Source: a virus
Virus record (IMG/VR): IMGVR_UViG_3300030060_002021
Span: 1 to 23,858 of that record
Length of the DNA: 23,858 nucleotides
Direction: 5' to 3' (one strand)
Both the position numbers and the translations under genes were made by a program. Shown here piece after piece: positions 13,042 through 17,623 of this stretch; position 1 is the stretch's first letter, and each line of letters opens with the position of its first letter. The notes under the pieces were generated by a model. The model was not told the DNA's origin. It searched no databases and saw nothing but the letters and a program-made list of their open reading frames with translations.

Positions 13042-14552
13042 AGCTGAAACCCATAATATGATTGTGACTCTACAATGTGCAGGGACTTTCGAGCGCGAGT
13101 CAGGCCAACATAGAATGTCCTGATCTCAGAGTCCTGATCCCTACTCTCAGCACAAGCTCTCGAAGAGTCGAGCAGCAGAGCCACGTTGTCTGCCTCACCA
13201 CCCTTGGCTTTGTGGATGGTTGATATCCTGATTCGCGGCTTGCCTGTCAGGATTGACTCACCCATCCGGCGCACAGATGTAATGTATATCCGCTCTCGTT
13301 CGGATACCTTGAGCACCTCGTGCCATGGTGTGTCTGTCTCTGCTGTCAACTCGCCCAGAGTTTTGACATCACTGAAACCATATGTCTCTTCAGCATCCAG
13401 ATTACCTAGTTGTCTTCTGCCTCGCTTAGTGGTGGCATCCGCCGCCAGTATCGTAGATAGCTTCTTGATGTCTGCCGCAGACAGGAATCTTCCCCTACAC
13501 AGATCCAGCCACATCTCGATTCCGCTCAACACGTTTGGTGATATCGACCAGCCCGACCCCTCGCGCCAGTACAAGAAACCCTGATCCTTGAGATCACTCG
13601 CCACCTTGTTGGCTATGAAATTTGTTCGAGTCAGTATAAGCCACTCACCCTCTCTGATATCCACATCCATGATGTCACGGTGCCAGACAATCGCACCTTG
13701 CTCATCGGTGCCCGACCATGTCTTTGGTTGCCGTGTTATCAAACGCCTGACCATATTGTCAGCTTGTTTGTGTATAGACACAGGCAGGCGGTAGGACTTG
13801 TCCAGTATTATCTTATTATCGCAGGCGTTCAGGAAATCCTTAACGTCCACACCCATCCAAGAATAGATGCACTGATCGTCATCCCCGGCATAGTATATGC
13901 GCTTGGCGTTGGGCTTCATGACCTCATGTACCATGCGCCACTGCAACGGAACCAGATCCTGCGCTTCATCCACAATCAAAACATCGAGCAGCGGACTGTC
14001 ACCCTGTTCGATAAAGTCCTCGATCATGTCTACAAAGTCTACCTTGCCTGTCTCTTTCTTGTAGTCACGGAACACCTGATCTACCAGTTTGAGTTGCTGG
14101 TAGTGCAGCCTGCGGTCAGCTACATCGTTAAACTGTTGCTCAATACTCACACCTCGAACCCGTGCCATCTGAATGGTGGACAGGTACGCATCGCCGCTCT
14201 TGCCGGGTCTGAACAGAATACCTTCAGCCATAGTTGCAGATGAGTTGGATGTAAACTCAAGACCCAAGAGTCCACCCAGCTTGGAATAGTCCTTGCCGCC
14301 CAAAACCTGCTTGACCTGCAACCCCAGCATTTGAAACGCGAAGCTATGCAATGTGCGGAACCAGACCATCTGATTCACATCCATGTTCAGCTTTGCAGCC
14401 GCCCTCTCTCGAGCTTCTTCCGCCGCCTTGCGACTGAACGATACGAATGCTATCGACTCAGGTCTGGTGCCACTGTCCAGTTCCTGCTGTACAATCTCGA
14501 TGAGTCTTGTTGTCTTGCCCGTGCCCGGGGGTCCGAAGATAGTTGTTTCCAT
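13038..14552 (-). CDS. UvrD/PcrA-like superfamily 1 DNA helicase (504 aa)
   Basis: All core SF1A motifs are present in order: Walker A GPPGTGKTT (residues 7-15, Lys13), motif Ia FVSFSRKAAEEARER (36-50), Walker B IVDEAQD (193-199), motif III AGDDDQCIYSW (222-232), motif IV-like KSYRLP (252-257), motif V TIHKAKGGEADNV (445-457) and motif VI YVGLTRAR (481-488). It should be an ATP-dependent 3'-5' DNA translocase/helicase. At about 500 aa it is shorter than UvrD (about 720) and lacks much of the accessory domain bulk. The stop of the primase overlaps its start (TGATG), so replication helicase and primase are co-translated. Confidence 0.93.
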   Translation of the reverse strand: METTIFGPPGTGKTTRLIEIVQQELDSGTRPESIAFVSFSRKAAEEARERAAAKLNMDVNQMVWFRTLHSFAFQMLGLQVKQVLGGKDYSKLGGLLGLEFTSNSSATMAEGILFRPGKSGDAYLSTIQMARVRGVSIEQQFNDVADRRLHYQQLKLVDQVFRDYKKETGKVDFVDMIEDFIEQGDSPLLDVLIVDEAQDLVPLQWRMVHEVMKPNAKRIYYAGDDDQCIYSWMGVDVKDFLNACDNKIILDKSYRLPVSIHKQADNMVRRLITRQPKTWSGTDEQGAIVWHRDIMDVDIREGEWLILTRTNFIANKVASDLKDQGFLYWREGSGWSISPNVLSGIEMWLDLCRGRFLSAADIKKLSTILAADATTKRGRRQLGNLDAEETYGFSDVKTLGELTAETDTPWHEVLKVSERERIYITSVRRMGESILTGKPRIRISTIHKAKGGEADNVALLLDSSRACAESRDQDSEIRTFYVGLTRARKSLHIVESQSYYGFQL

Positions 14553-16087
14553 CAGAACGGCACCTCACCATCTTGAACCTCGATACTTGGAACTTGAACC
14601 TCTGTATTGAACGCAGGCACCCACCACACCCGAAGCTGCTTTGACTCACCCTTGGTTGTCTTGAATCTTTTATGACCATTGGCAGATCCTCCAGAGTTCA
14701 TCTCTTTCAGACGCTCCTGAATCTGACCCCTGCTATATGTCTCGAACTTGTTGTTGCGAAGAAACTTCATCAGTGCCTCGATCTTGAAGTACGTCATGTT
14801 GTCTTCTTCATCAGTGAATGGCTTGCCAAGTGTGATCTCTTCGGCTGACTGAGCCTGTACTCTGCCATCACAAAACGACTCGAGCAGATCCATGAACTGG
14901 CCTTTGTATGTCAGTTCTTCCGGCACCTCGATCTCACTCATATCCTCCATCATCAACGACACAATGATCTGCCACTCCGCCAGCTTCATCAGCGGTGGCA
15001 TCTTGCGTATCTGTTCCATGCAGGCTTTCTGGAATCTCTGCGGTGTTTGTAGATCGTCCGTTGTCATCTCGACACGTTGCCCAGCTACATCACAAAACCA
15101 CACAGGTGGCTCCGACTTGACTACACATAGCCCCGATATCTCTACGTTCGATGCGTGACCACCAATGCCATACTTCTTTGTCTTGCATAAGTTCTTGTTG
15201 CAAAAGCTCTTGAGCGGCTCCTGATCACACGGGAATCCATACTCTTTCTTTTCATGCTGGTTCTGTATCGTCACAACCTCAGACGCTGGTAGCGGAGGTG
15301 TGCAATGCTTGTTGTTTATTTCCTCGAGTCGAGCTTTCCAGTTGTCGGGCTGCTCTTTTTTACAGCCCACGGCTGCTGCAAACATCACTGTGTTGCGTGT
15401 GCCTTCGGGAATCCCCTGCCCAAACATACAGTTCAGGCAGGGTGCCCACTCATCAAACTCATCGATCTGTTTGCCAAAAGTCAAACCAACAAAAACTTCT
15501 GGCTCAACACTCCTCCTATCGACAAGCTCCAAGAATTCTTTTAACGTCGCTGGTTCGCCATCTTCCTTAATAGCGTAGCGGAGCGTCTGTTTCGCATCAA
15601 AGTACGGAAGGTTAATAAAGTTCCCCACATCACCACGCTCGACAATAACCTGCTCCTGCTTTGGAAATATCTCACAGCCACCATATCCAAGATACGATGC
15701 AATCTCTGACGCTTTGTCACGGAACTCTCCTGCGCTTATGTAACCTTTGAAGAAGAAAAATATATGTGCCCCACCAGACTTGGATCGACATACGACTGCC
15801 GGAACCTCCATCTTCTGTATCTTTTTATCAAGTGCCGCTAAGTCGAGCGGATACTGATCGATATCTAACGCACCGAACCTGCACCTGTTATCTTCATTGA
15901 TGGGTATGGAACCCACACCAAGACCACCCTTTAGATGATCGGCAATGAGTTCCACTGTAAGTGGTTTGCGAACGATGATAGACTTGGCCTTTTGTTTGCC
16001 AGCCCTTCGCTCTTCTGATATTTGTGTCTGTCCATGTGCCGCACTAAATCCCTCAAACGCAGCCATGAACCTTTGTAGGTAGCTCAT
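14552..16087 (-). CDS. Archaeo-eukaryotic-type (AEP) DNA primase (511 aa)
   Basis: The N-terminal half has the AEP catalytic signature: Asp75-x-Asp77 in GALDIDQY, SGGAHIF (104-110, with His108) and the CEIFPKQ element (138-144). This resembles the primase domain named in TOTE systems and other plasmid/phage AEP primases, not bacterial DnaG. A PriCT-like region follows (GIPEGTRNTVMFAAAV, 225-240), with cysteines at 217, 220, 287, 296 and 301 that may bind metal. The C-terminus contains repeated EVQ segments and ends DGEVPF, like an SSB tail. The ribosome-binding site AAGGGG lies 7 nt before the ATG and can pair with CCCC next to the start. Confidence 0.85.
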   Translation of the reverse strand: MSYLQRFMAAFEGFSAAHGQTQISEERRAGKQKAKSIIVRKPLTVELIADHLKGGLGVGSIPINEDNRCRFGALDIDQYPLDLAALDKKIQKMEVPAVVCRSKSGGAHIFFFFKGYISAGEFRDKASEIASYLGYGGCEIFPKQEQVIVERGDVGNFINLPYFDAKQTLRYAIKEDGEPATLKEFLELVDRRSVEPEVFVGLTFGKQIDEFDEWAPCLNCMFGQGIPEGTRNTVMFAAAVGCKKEQPDNWKARLEEINNKHCTPPLPASEVVTIQNQHEKKEYGFPCDQEPLKSFCNKNLCKTKKYGIGGHASNVEISGLCVVKSEPPVWFCDVAGQRVEMTTDDLQTPQRFQKACMEQIRKMPPLMKLAEWQIIVSLMMEDMSEIEVPEELTYKGQFMDLLESFCDGRVQAQSAEEITLGKPFTDEEDNMTYFKIEALMKFLRNNKFETYSRGQIQERLKEMNSGGSANGHKRFKTTKGESKQLRVWWVPAFNTEVQVPSIEVQDGEVPF

Positions 16088-16100
16088 GGGGTATCCCCTT
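16085..16100 (-). promoter_or_regulatory. Ribosome-binding-site hairpin at the primase start
   Basis: In the leftward transcript, AAGGGGAUACCCCAUG places the Shine-Dalgarno GGGG opposite a CCCC immediately before the start codon: four G-C pairs closing a 3-nt AUA loop. The pairing would hide the ribosome-binding site until opened. Sequence is plain; the regulatory effect is inference. Confidence 0.45.
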
Positions 16101-16106
16101 GTTGGT

Positions 16107-16186
16107 TTGGGATGGGCTAATAGAAGTATCCACTAACTATGGCACTGCGACCATCGACAGTCCTGAACTGTGTTCACCCACCCCAA
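16107..16186 (-). promoter_or_regulatory. Structured RNA leader between SSB-like gene and primase
   Basis: The 106-bp gap (16088-16193) holds no ORF. In the leftward RNA, UUGGGGUGGG (complement of 16177-16186) pairs fully with CCCAUCCCAA (complement of 16107-16116) with one G-U, extended by one further U-G pair. Inside lie two hairpins: ACAGU/ACUGU (16157-16171) and AUGGU/GCCAU (16139-16154, one U-G). Each wobble pair would be an A-C mismatch if read from the + strand, so the fold is specific to the transcribed strand. No U-run follows, so it is not an ordinary terminator. It begins about 7 nt after the SSB stop. Confidence 0.5.
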
Positions 16187-16193
16187 GAGGTAT

Positions 16194-16976
16194 TTAAAAA
16201 GGTACGTCTGAGTCTTCTTGCTTTTGCTTCTCCTCACCAGTTCCAGTTTTAATCTCACCAGCCCTGAACGAATTGTACAGATCACGAGCCTCGATAATCG
16301 CTTCAGGTGCTACGCTATCCATCTCTTCCTGCGCTACTGCGTAGTTGAACCACGAACCTTTGTCGTTGCTCTCCTGCACAGAAGTCAGCTTCCACGGCAC
16401 AGCCCACATCGGTGGGTTGAACAAGCCCTTGCTTGGATGCGAAATCTTCAGACCAGCCCGACGAGTATTCCATTGCTTGGCAATCTTCATCTGAGTCTTC
16501 TTCATATCGCAGATCATTTGAGTAGTTGCACCATTTTCATCGACACCCAACACCAAAAACTGAGCAGACCGGACAAGCTCGTTACCGCTTGGTAACATCT
16601 CAGTAGAACCGTTACGCTCAGTCTTACGGATATCTGGATCATCGGCACTCAACTCACCCATGAATCCACCACCGGACTCCCGGAGTTGGAACTCCAGAAA
16701 CTTGGTAGTATATGCACACATCAGTACAGTCAGACCAGTATCGGCCTCCCAGAACTGACCAGTTACAGTATTGAAGATATCACCTGCCGAAGCACCCTGA
16801 ATAAACTTGGGGTCCGTCTTCAACAGTTGCGGTGACAGAGGCTGTAAGATCCGCAGGAACGGAATCTGCATATCATCTGCACCAATAGTCTCCATACCCT
16901 GACCTTGACTATCAAACAGGTCATCCATTAGATTTGCCACCGCAGTGGTCTTTGCATTTGCTACTTCTGTTGCCAT
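16194..16976 (-). CDS. Putative single-stranded DNA-binding protein with acidic DSDVPF tail (260 aa)
   Basis: The C-terminus is charged and acidic and ends EDSDVPF, matching the SSB-type acidic tip (consensus D-D-[IV]-P-F) that recruits replication partners. The body (about residues 30-230) is a mixed beta-rich domain with many aromatics, and I cannot show a canonical OB-fold by eye. Position directly before the primase and in an operon with polymerase and helicase supports an SSB role; similar proteins in marine phages are annotated that way. GAGGAG lies 8 nt before its ATG, inside the end of the preceding gene. Alternative: another DNA-binding replication accessory protein. Confidence 0.7.
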   Translation of the reverse strand: MATEVANAKTTAVANLMDDLFDSQGQGMETIGADDMQIPFLRILQPLSPQLLKTDPKFIQGASAGDIFNTVTGQFWEADTGLTVLMCAYTTKFLEFQLRESGGGFMGELSADDPDIRKTERNGSTEMLPSGNELVRSAQFLVLGVDENGATTQMICDMKKTQMKIAKQWNTRRAGLKISHPSKGLFNPPMWAVPWKLTSVQESNDKGSWFNYAVAQEEMDSVAPEAIIEARDLYNSFRAGEIKTGTGEEKQKQEDSDVPF

Positions 16977-17544: not shown

Positions 17545-17568
17545 CTTCCTTCTCCTTCGTTAAAGTTT

Positions 17569-17623
17569 AACCCCTTCGGGTTGAATGCAGACGTTATCGC
17601 CTGCAACCTGCTTGGTCAAGCAG
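17569..17623 (-). promoter_or_regulatory. Three consecutive hairpins between RHH gene and 187-aa gene
   Basis: In leftward order: CUGCUU-GACC-AAGCAG (17608-17623, spanning the RHH stop codon), UGCAGGCG-AUAA-CGUCUGCA (17586-17605, 8 bp including one G-U that would be A-C on the other strand), and AACCC-GAAG-GGGUU (17569-17582). They end about 15 nt before the Shine-Dalgarno of the 187-aa gene. No U-run follows. They may be processing, stability or attenuation elements. Confidence 0.45.

Follow-up and report, generated by a model that had tools for sequence, protein, structure and literature searches.

The window, the whole stretch of DNA analysed here, is a 23.9-kb IMG/VR virus record (23,858 nucleotides) with a leftward replication module encoding an SNF2-type helicase, a Pam3 gp33-like gene, an SSB-like gene, an AEP-TOTE primase, a UvrD-type helicase, and a family A DNA polymerase. 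The SSB-like gene (positions 16194..16976, minus strand; 260 amino acids, Pam3_Gp34 family PF23977, phrog_2402) lies upstream of the primase gene (14552..16087, minus strand; 511 amino acids, PF22548, phrog_21866), and the two are separated by a gap of 106 nt (16088-16193). Identification of the upstream protein as an SSB, made in a first-pass annotation of the sequence, is plausible given its acidic DDVPF-like tail (EDSDVPF in the window). Against this label, phrog_2402 is listed with function unknown, and no usable fold match was obtained: the predicted structure is a poor model (pLDDT 49.8) with no structural matches at E ≤ 0.001, and a sequence search against solved structures returned three matches only, with E values of 0.1-0.7. 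In Vibrio phage JSF33, moreover, a separately annotated SSB adjoins the SSB-like gene.

The leftward RNA of positions 16107-16186 folds at -32.6 kcal/mol (z -3.65), as compared with -23.6 kcal/mol for the antisense strand. When the flanks were included, the sense strand gave a z of -2.73 (2/200 shuffles as good) and the antisense strand a z of -0.41 (56/200). These values confirm the structure and assign it to the leftward mRNA, in agreement with the strand specificity first claimed for it. It begins 7 nt past the SSB-like stop codon (16194-16196), in line with the start right after the stop that had been noted, and several details of its original description were revised. The closing helix, TTGGGGTGGG/CCCATCCCAA, is formed in the folds by a 5' strand, UUGGGGUGGG (16177..16186, minus strand), whose homologous stem covaries in the clade, and a 3' strand, CCCAUCCCAA (16107..16116, minus strand). 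Here, 10 pairs are possible and 9 or 8 are formed depending on the fold, rather than 11. Three hairpins, not two, are enclosed in a four-way junction: hairpin 1 (UGAAC-ACA-GUUCA; 16164..16176), hairpin 2 (16141..16163), and hairpin 3 (16116..16137), all on the minus strand and predicted by folding. The G-U pairs number four instead of three: a single one joins 16181 to 16112 in the closing helix, and the other three belong to hairpin 3.

Between the stop codon and the stem lies a 5' flank, AUACCUC (16187..16193, minus strand). In sister locus L004, the AUACCU of this flank can pair with the locus's own loop AGGUAU when read by eye; the same by-eye reading of the window flank found no loop partner of that kind. 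Pseudoknot-type pairing of the 5' segment was assessed in the 18 clusters whose gaps measure 100 nt or more, of which 6 reached p ≤ 0.05; the cluster of the window (L003) gave no signal (p 0.9), and no interlocked pseudoknot was seen in the window. Downstream of the stem, the linker ACCAAC, a Shine-Dalgarno-like AAGGGG (16095-16100), and AUACCCC precede the primase start (16088..16106, minus strand), and a small GGGG/CCCC hairpin is possible within this segment. The sequence behind the stem, ACCAACAAGGGG, contains no U-run, which upholds the earlier statement that this is not a standard terminator; the terminator pattern scan, which takes loops of 3-8 only, is blind to the window stem. The anti-Shine-Dalgarno motif CUCC is absent from the window gap, and no loop complementary to the Shine-Dalgarno (SD) sequence was seen.

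Considered within the window, the energy of the site alone is not exceptional: by raw energy it is absent from the 15 best 90-nt leftward segments listed. What exceeds chance is that relatives keep a structure at the same site. The stem sequence recurs in the rest of the window no more often than chance predicts. No tRNA was found, and a nucleotide search of phage records, with the stretch spanning the two genes and their gap as query, gave one 57-nt match. A compact RNA with covarying helices resembles the members of Rfam, but neither the window nor 12 related loci matched any family at the gathering score. At a relaxed threshold, the single match around the site was an lncRNA fragment with an E value of 2, which was rejected. 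A pair of 24-nt, 79% complementary arms at the end of the SSB-like gene and the start of the primase gene fell outside the best structure when folded with more context.

Relatives with the same gene order were collected by scans with both proteins and by alignments, giving 225 loci at first and then 366. The latter include contigs fetched by more than one scan and reduce to about 199 distinct contexts (gap plus 150 nt upstream and 300 nt downstream) and 149 distinct gaps; because each scan contributed its 80 best matches, they are not a random sample. Within loci so chosen, a stem of at least 8 bp was present in 148/148 distinct gaps analysed and in 30% of base-shuffled gaps, and stems of 9 bp or more in 134/148 and 12%, respectively, with three base shuffles per gap. 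Locus L284 was skipped because a broken SSB-like frame extends its gap beyond 320 nt; its stretch before the primase resembles that of L177. The position of the stem is narrowly set, with a median start 6 nt past the upstream stop and a 10-90% range of 5-9 (n = 106 simple gaps).

In the first set of loci, the sense strand reached z ≤ -2 in 34/51 gap clusters, as compared with 4-7 of 48-51 at five of the six control offsets. Stems of at least 9 bp peaked 0-50 nt past the SSB-like stop, in 29/51 clusters on the sense strand and 14/51 on the antisense strand. The other 50-nt bins within ±1.5 kb held 0-3 clusters, with the exceptions of +700 to +800 (10 and 7/51) and -1450 (7/42). The sense strand folded better than the antisense strand in 35/51 clusters (Wilcoxon p 1.8e-4), a bias that is weak by itself because two coding control offsets were also somewhat biased (p 0.007 and 0.03). 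At the sixth control offset, -700, corresponding to about 16788-16893 (minus strand) inside the SSB-like gene, z ≤ -2 was observed in 21/47 clusters for sense and 13 for antisense; the structure in this coding region is unexplained. Hairpins are common in sizeable gaps of genomes of this kind: among same-strand gaps 35-150 nt long, 11/16 across 50 kb of Dinoroseobacter phage R5C and 8/15 in JSF33 carry stems of at least 8 bp. It is the constancy at the SSB-like/primase site, rather than the mere presence of a hairpin, that is striking.

The first-pass annotation had named compensatory change in related phages as the check on which an RNA structure would stand or fall, and the stems proved to be kept through two-sided changes. 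In the clade of the window (17 gaps, with the branched form of the window left out), 98% of cells were paired, and two-sided changes were observed in 4/12 pairs and 17 cells. The covariation score of 0.251 exceeded the maximum for slid structures (0.131) and was reached by 0/500 shuffles; less extreme measures were the number of pairs with two-sided changes, reached by 9/500 shuffles, and further pair types, reached by 48/500. A distant clade, with primases about 55% identical, provided 15 distinct 12-bp stems. Here, native arms formed 11.9 of 12 pairs, as compared with 9.7 for swapped and refitted arms (sd 0.34, maximum 10.8, 5000 swaps). An earlier version of this test, which refitted the native arms only, had given 98.9% versus 61%; the fair version refits both. 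Retention of the stems through changes on both sides shows selection for pairing at the level of RNA. Selection thus holds an RNA shape at one place between replication genes while nearly all of its bases, and even its topology, are replaced, and RNAs of this kind are easily missed by sequence-based RNA families.

In one group of gaps, which includes those of the window, L003, L084, L010 (183-nt gap), and L022 (218-nt gap), the basal stem bears an apex that is large or branched. In L010:3272-3457 and L022:3272-3492, the gaps are enlarged by material inside the apex and the basal stem is unchanged. The apex of the window is the branched junction, an exact 22-base piece of which was found in two contigs only, L003 and L084; what the window has in common with its sister phages is the basal stem alone. 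The apex is exchangeable, because L004, whose primase is 98.6% identical, carries in its 63-nt gap the same basal stem topped by a very different apex.

A second architecture was recognized by a G-run/C-run signature in 40 distinct gaps, 27 of which (L034 not counted) carry a first helix, P1, of 6-11 bp. In P1, bases at the stop codon pair with a segment about 50 nt downstream, and in 27/27 of these gaps the start of the helix falls within the stop codon or no more than three bases past it. The G-run lies in the loop of a small hairpin, S1, the C-run lies before the SD, and P3 lies between. For P1, S1, and P3, native pairing exceeded swapped pairing in 13 clusters (p 5e-5 each, the smallest value that 20000 permutations can give); L034, L301, and L186 were left out of this comparison, and P1 is weak or absent in L358, L160, and L154. 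Interlocked pseudoknots are seen at L159:2370-2503, L174:2368-2503, L177:2375-2503, and other loci, with differing P1, S1, and P3 sequences. Nine of the 12 related loci searched against Rfam carry the G-run/C-run signature and none reached threshold, so that among the loci searched this is a pseudoknotted RNA architecture without an Rfam match.

Simple hairpins, with a stem of at least 8 bp and a loop of up to 20 nt, account for 93 distinct gaps, although some of these are larger structures. A nearly identical loop, CTAGGTAT(T/C/A)AACTA, is carried on different stems in distant clades (L004, L002, and L009; L162, L163, and L164). In JSF33 (L259), a core, GGTGTCGACGTCGACACC, is common to the gaps behind 7744, 13180, and 17910, and two similar hairpins lie behind 6875 and 35472.

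The association of the hairpin with the upstream gene was apparent in cultured phages. The set consists of 16 records with an SSB-like gene, all assigned to that family by profile with E values of 2.5e-25 or better; the primase records of VLCpiS6a, ct3Et533, and Barton, in which an SSB-like gene was not seen just upstream of the primase in the same direction, are not counted. A hairpin was present in the gap after the SSB-like gene in 15/16, with z values of -2 or below in 13 of these. The next gene is the primase in six of the 15, another annotated gene in eight (helicase, endonuclease, spanin, another SSB, or hypothetical gene), and one record is without annotation. In HTVC023P, the gene pair is kept with a gap of 5 nt and no hairpin. 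Given that the hairpin tracks the upstream gene in 15/16, in eight cases ahead of annotated genes other than primase, it resembles a structure at the 3' end of the SSB-like message more than a leader of the primase. The earlier description as a primase leader is correct only in part: in cultured phages the structure still trails the SSB-like gene where a different annotated gene comes next.

Most likely, the gap RNA helps to set the amounts of both proteins, a known type of control that here has some unusual variants. The reading we favor, at a probability of roughly 0.45, is by analogy with the hairpins of the Escherichia coli malE-malF gap: a protective intercistronic hairpin would keep the SSB-like message more abundant than that of the primase. 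The element would then be an intercistronic structure marking the 3' boundary of the SSB-like message within a polycistronic replication transcript. After downstream cleavage or premature termination, 3'-5' exonucleases would be halted by the stable stem just past the stop codon; the SSB-like part of the transcript would then persist longer than the primase part and yield a larger amount of SSB-like protein than of primase. A fixed position, compensatory pairing, association with the upstream gene, and the lack of a U-run in the window are observed properties of the structured gap; exonuclease blocking and the resulting protein ratio are what the malE analogy would predict. The earlier suggestions that the element tunes relative expression or is an RNA-processing site come close to this reading.

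In E. coli, 34 gene pairs have a stabilized 5' gene; in 26/34 the stable portion has its 3' terminus just past a stable hairpin that lacks a U-tract, and 17 of those 26 3' ends fall inside the next coding sequence (PMC5927463). As in malE-malF, a stable hairpin of conserved structure lies behind the upstream open reading frame of an operon without a U-tract (PMC5927463); in the window it lies directly behind the frame (7 nt, z -3.65). The two differ in that the phage gap is known from its sequence, which shows extreme turnover, that some phage relatives carry U-runs, anti-SD loops, or pseudoknots, and that the window has a four-way junction. Another phage RNA, the pseudoknot operator of the T4 gene 32 (SSB) mRNA, is similarly a structured RNA tied to an SSB-type gene, and pseudoknots occur in relatives of the window. 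By contrast, the T4 structure is upstream of gene 32 and bound by gp32 (PMC3014915), whereas the gap structure is downstream of the SSB-like gene and no pseudoknot was seen in the window. The proposal that the element is undescribed stands in so far as no Rfam match was found, although intercistronic hairpins are known as a kind. No description of an SSB-like/primase gap RNA was found among the titles and abstract openings listed.

The main rival, which we consider unlikely, is a translational gate in which the structure holds or frees the primase SD through loop-SD pairing or competition by the C-rich 3' strand of the stem, such that completion of the SSB-like gene by ribosomes, or the SSB-like protein itself, would govern primase synthesis. 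In favor of such a gate, CUCC, complementary to the SD core, occurs in 9/21 loops of relatives with simple hairpins, with 1.5 expected from shuffling (p 3e-4). Pairing of native loops with their SD exceeded swapped pairing (p 0.005, with 6/27 clusters having loops under 6 nt left out); this value was 0.020 before two start codons were corrected by assigning to L216 and L226 the GTG start of their sisters. The earlier loop-SD test covered 67/105 distinct gaps (those no longer than 90 nt whose main hairpin lies within 12 nt of the stop) and left out 6/28 clusters with loops under 6 nt. Loop and SD have also changed together in L212, L215, L219, and L220 (ACACUC/GAGUGU, with CUCC/GGAG elsewhere in their clade), and the start of P1 at the stop codon in all 27 pseudoknotted gaps with a P1 of at least 6 bp is in keeping with such a gate. 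Against composition-shuffled loops, however, a less favorable control, just 3/22 clusters gave p ≤ 0.05 (combined p 0.004), and the hairpin also stands ahead of genes other than primase. The window itself lacks CUCC and thereby the SD-complementary loop expected of an SD-sequestering hairpin or pseudoknot. When nested folds were modelled with a ribosome occupying the stop codon, mean SD accessibility in the window hardly moved, from 0.43 to 0.44; among ten sequences a clear rise was seen only in L003 (0.36 to 0.44), and L058 dropped to 0.01. Release of the SD by a terminating ribosome thus found no support from the nested-fold model in the clade of the window. In other clades, loop-SD complementarity suggests an additional or different role. 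A broader and rather improbable reading would make all of the gap RNAs one family of translation-sensing switches, with the architecture and not the sequence inherited and the window junction a rebuilt version. The strand from the SSB-like stop codon would pair about 50 nt downstream, the S1 G-run could pair with the pre-SD C-run, and a terminating ribosome or the SSB-like protein would break or hold the fold and so set primase synthesis.

Protection of the 3' end is preferred for the window because it has neither a U-run nor an anti-SD loop and its SD was not freed in the ribosome model. A leaky intrinsic terminator or attenuator between the two genes is improbable here: the GC-rich intergenic hairpin is present, but the U-run of Rho-independent terminators is missing behind the stem both in the window and in 17 related gaps of alignment A4. 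Elsewhere, at least 5 U in 8 follow a GC-rich stem in 9/27 simple-hairpin clusters, which depart in this respect from the malE type and where termination may therefore be the role; cultured phages with U-runs include JSF33, Kyle, CN2, Bella, and Bas99. For the PB1-like phage JG024, six terminators have been predicted (PMC3008698), a count that speaks neither for nor against one behind the SSB-like gene. Processing by RNase III or RNase E to separate the two messages would suit an intergenic stem with an exchangeable apex, and phage R5C encodes an annotated RNase III; such processing is also improbable, given that many of the simple stems are about 8-13 bp. Stems of this length are short for RNase III. 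A DNA-level feature, namely an origin or a primase-loading hairpin extruded on single-stranded DNA, would fit the proximity to the primase and SSB-like genes. It is nevertheless highly improbable, in view of the better folding of the sense strand in most clusters, qualified as above by the biased coding controls, and of the presence of the hairpin without a neighboring primase. The gap offers a way to study the balance that phages strike between an ssDNA-binding-type protein and primase.

Two further structures were seen in the window. The primase start codon (about 16063-16089, minus strand) can pair with codons 7-8 (AUGAGCU/GGUUCAU; UUCAUG). Relative to synonymous shuffles, the AUG was unpaired at 0.32 versus 0.45 (median z -0.6); the trend is only weak, with z below -1 in 13/41 clusters and above 1 in 8. 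In addition, positions 17545-17615 (minus strand) of the window contain a second structured gap, with the hairpin GCAGGCGAUAACGUCUGC (z -3.18).
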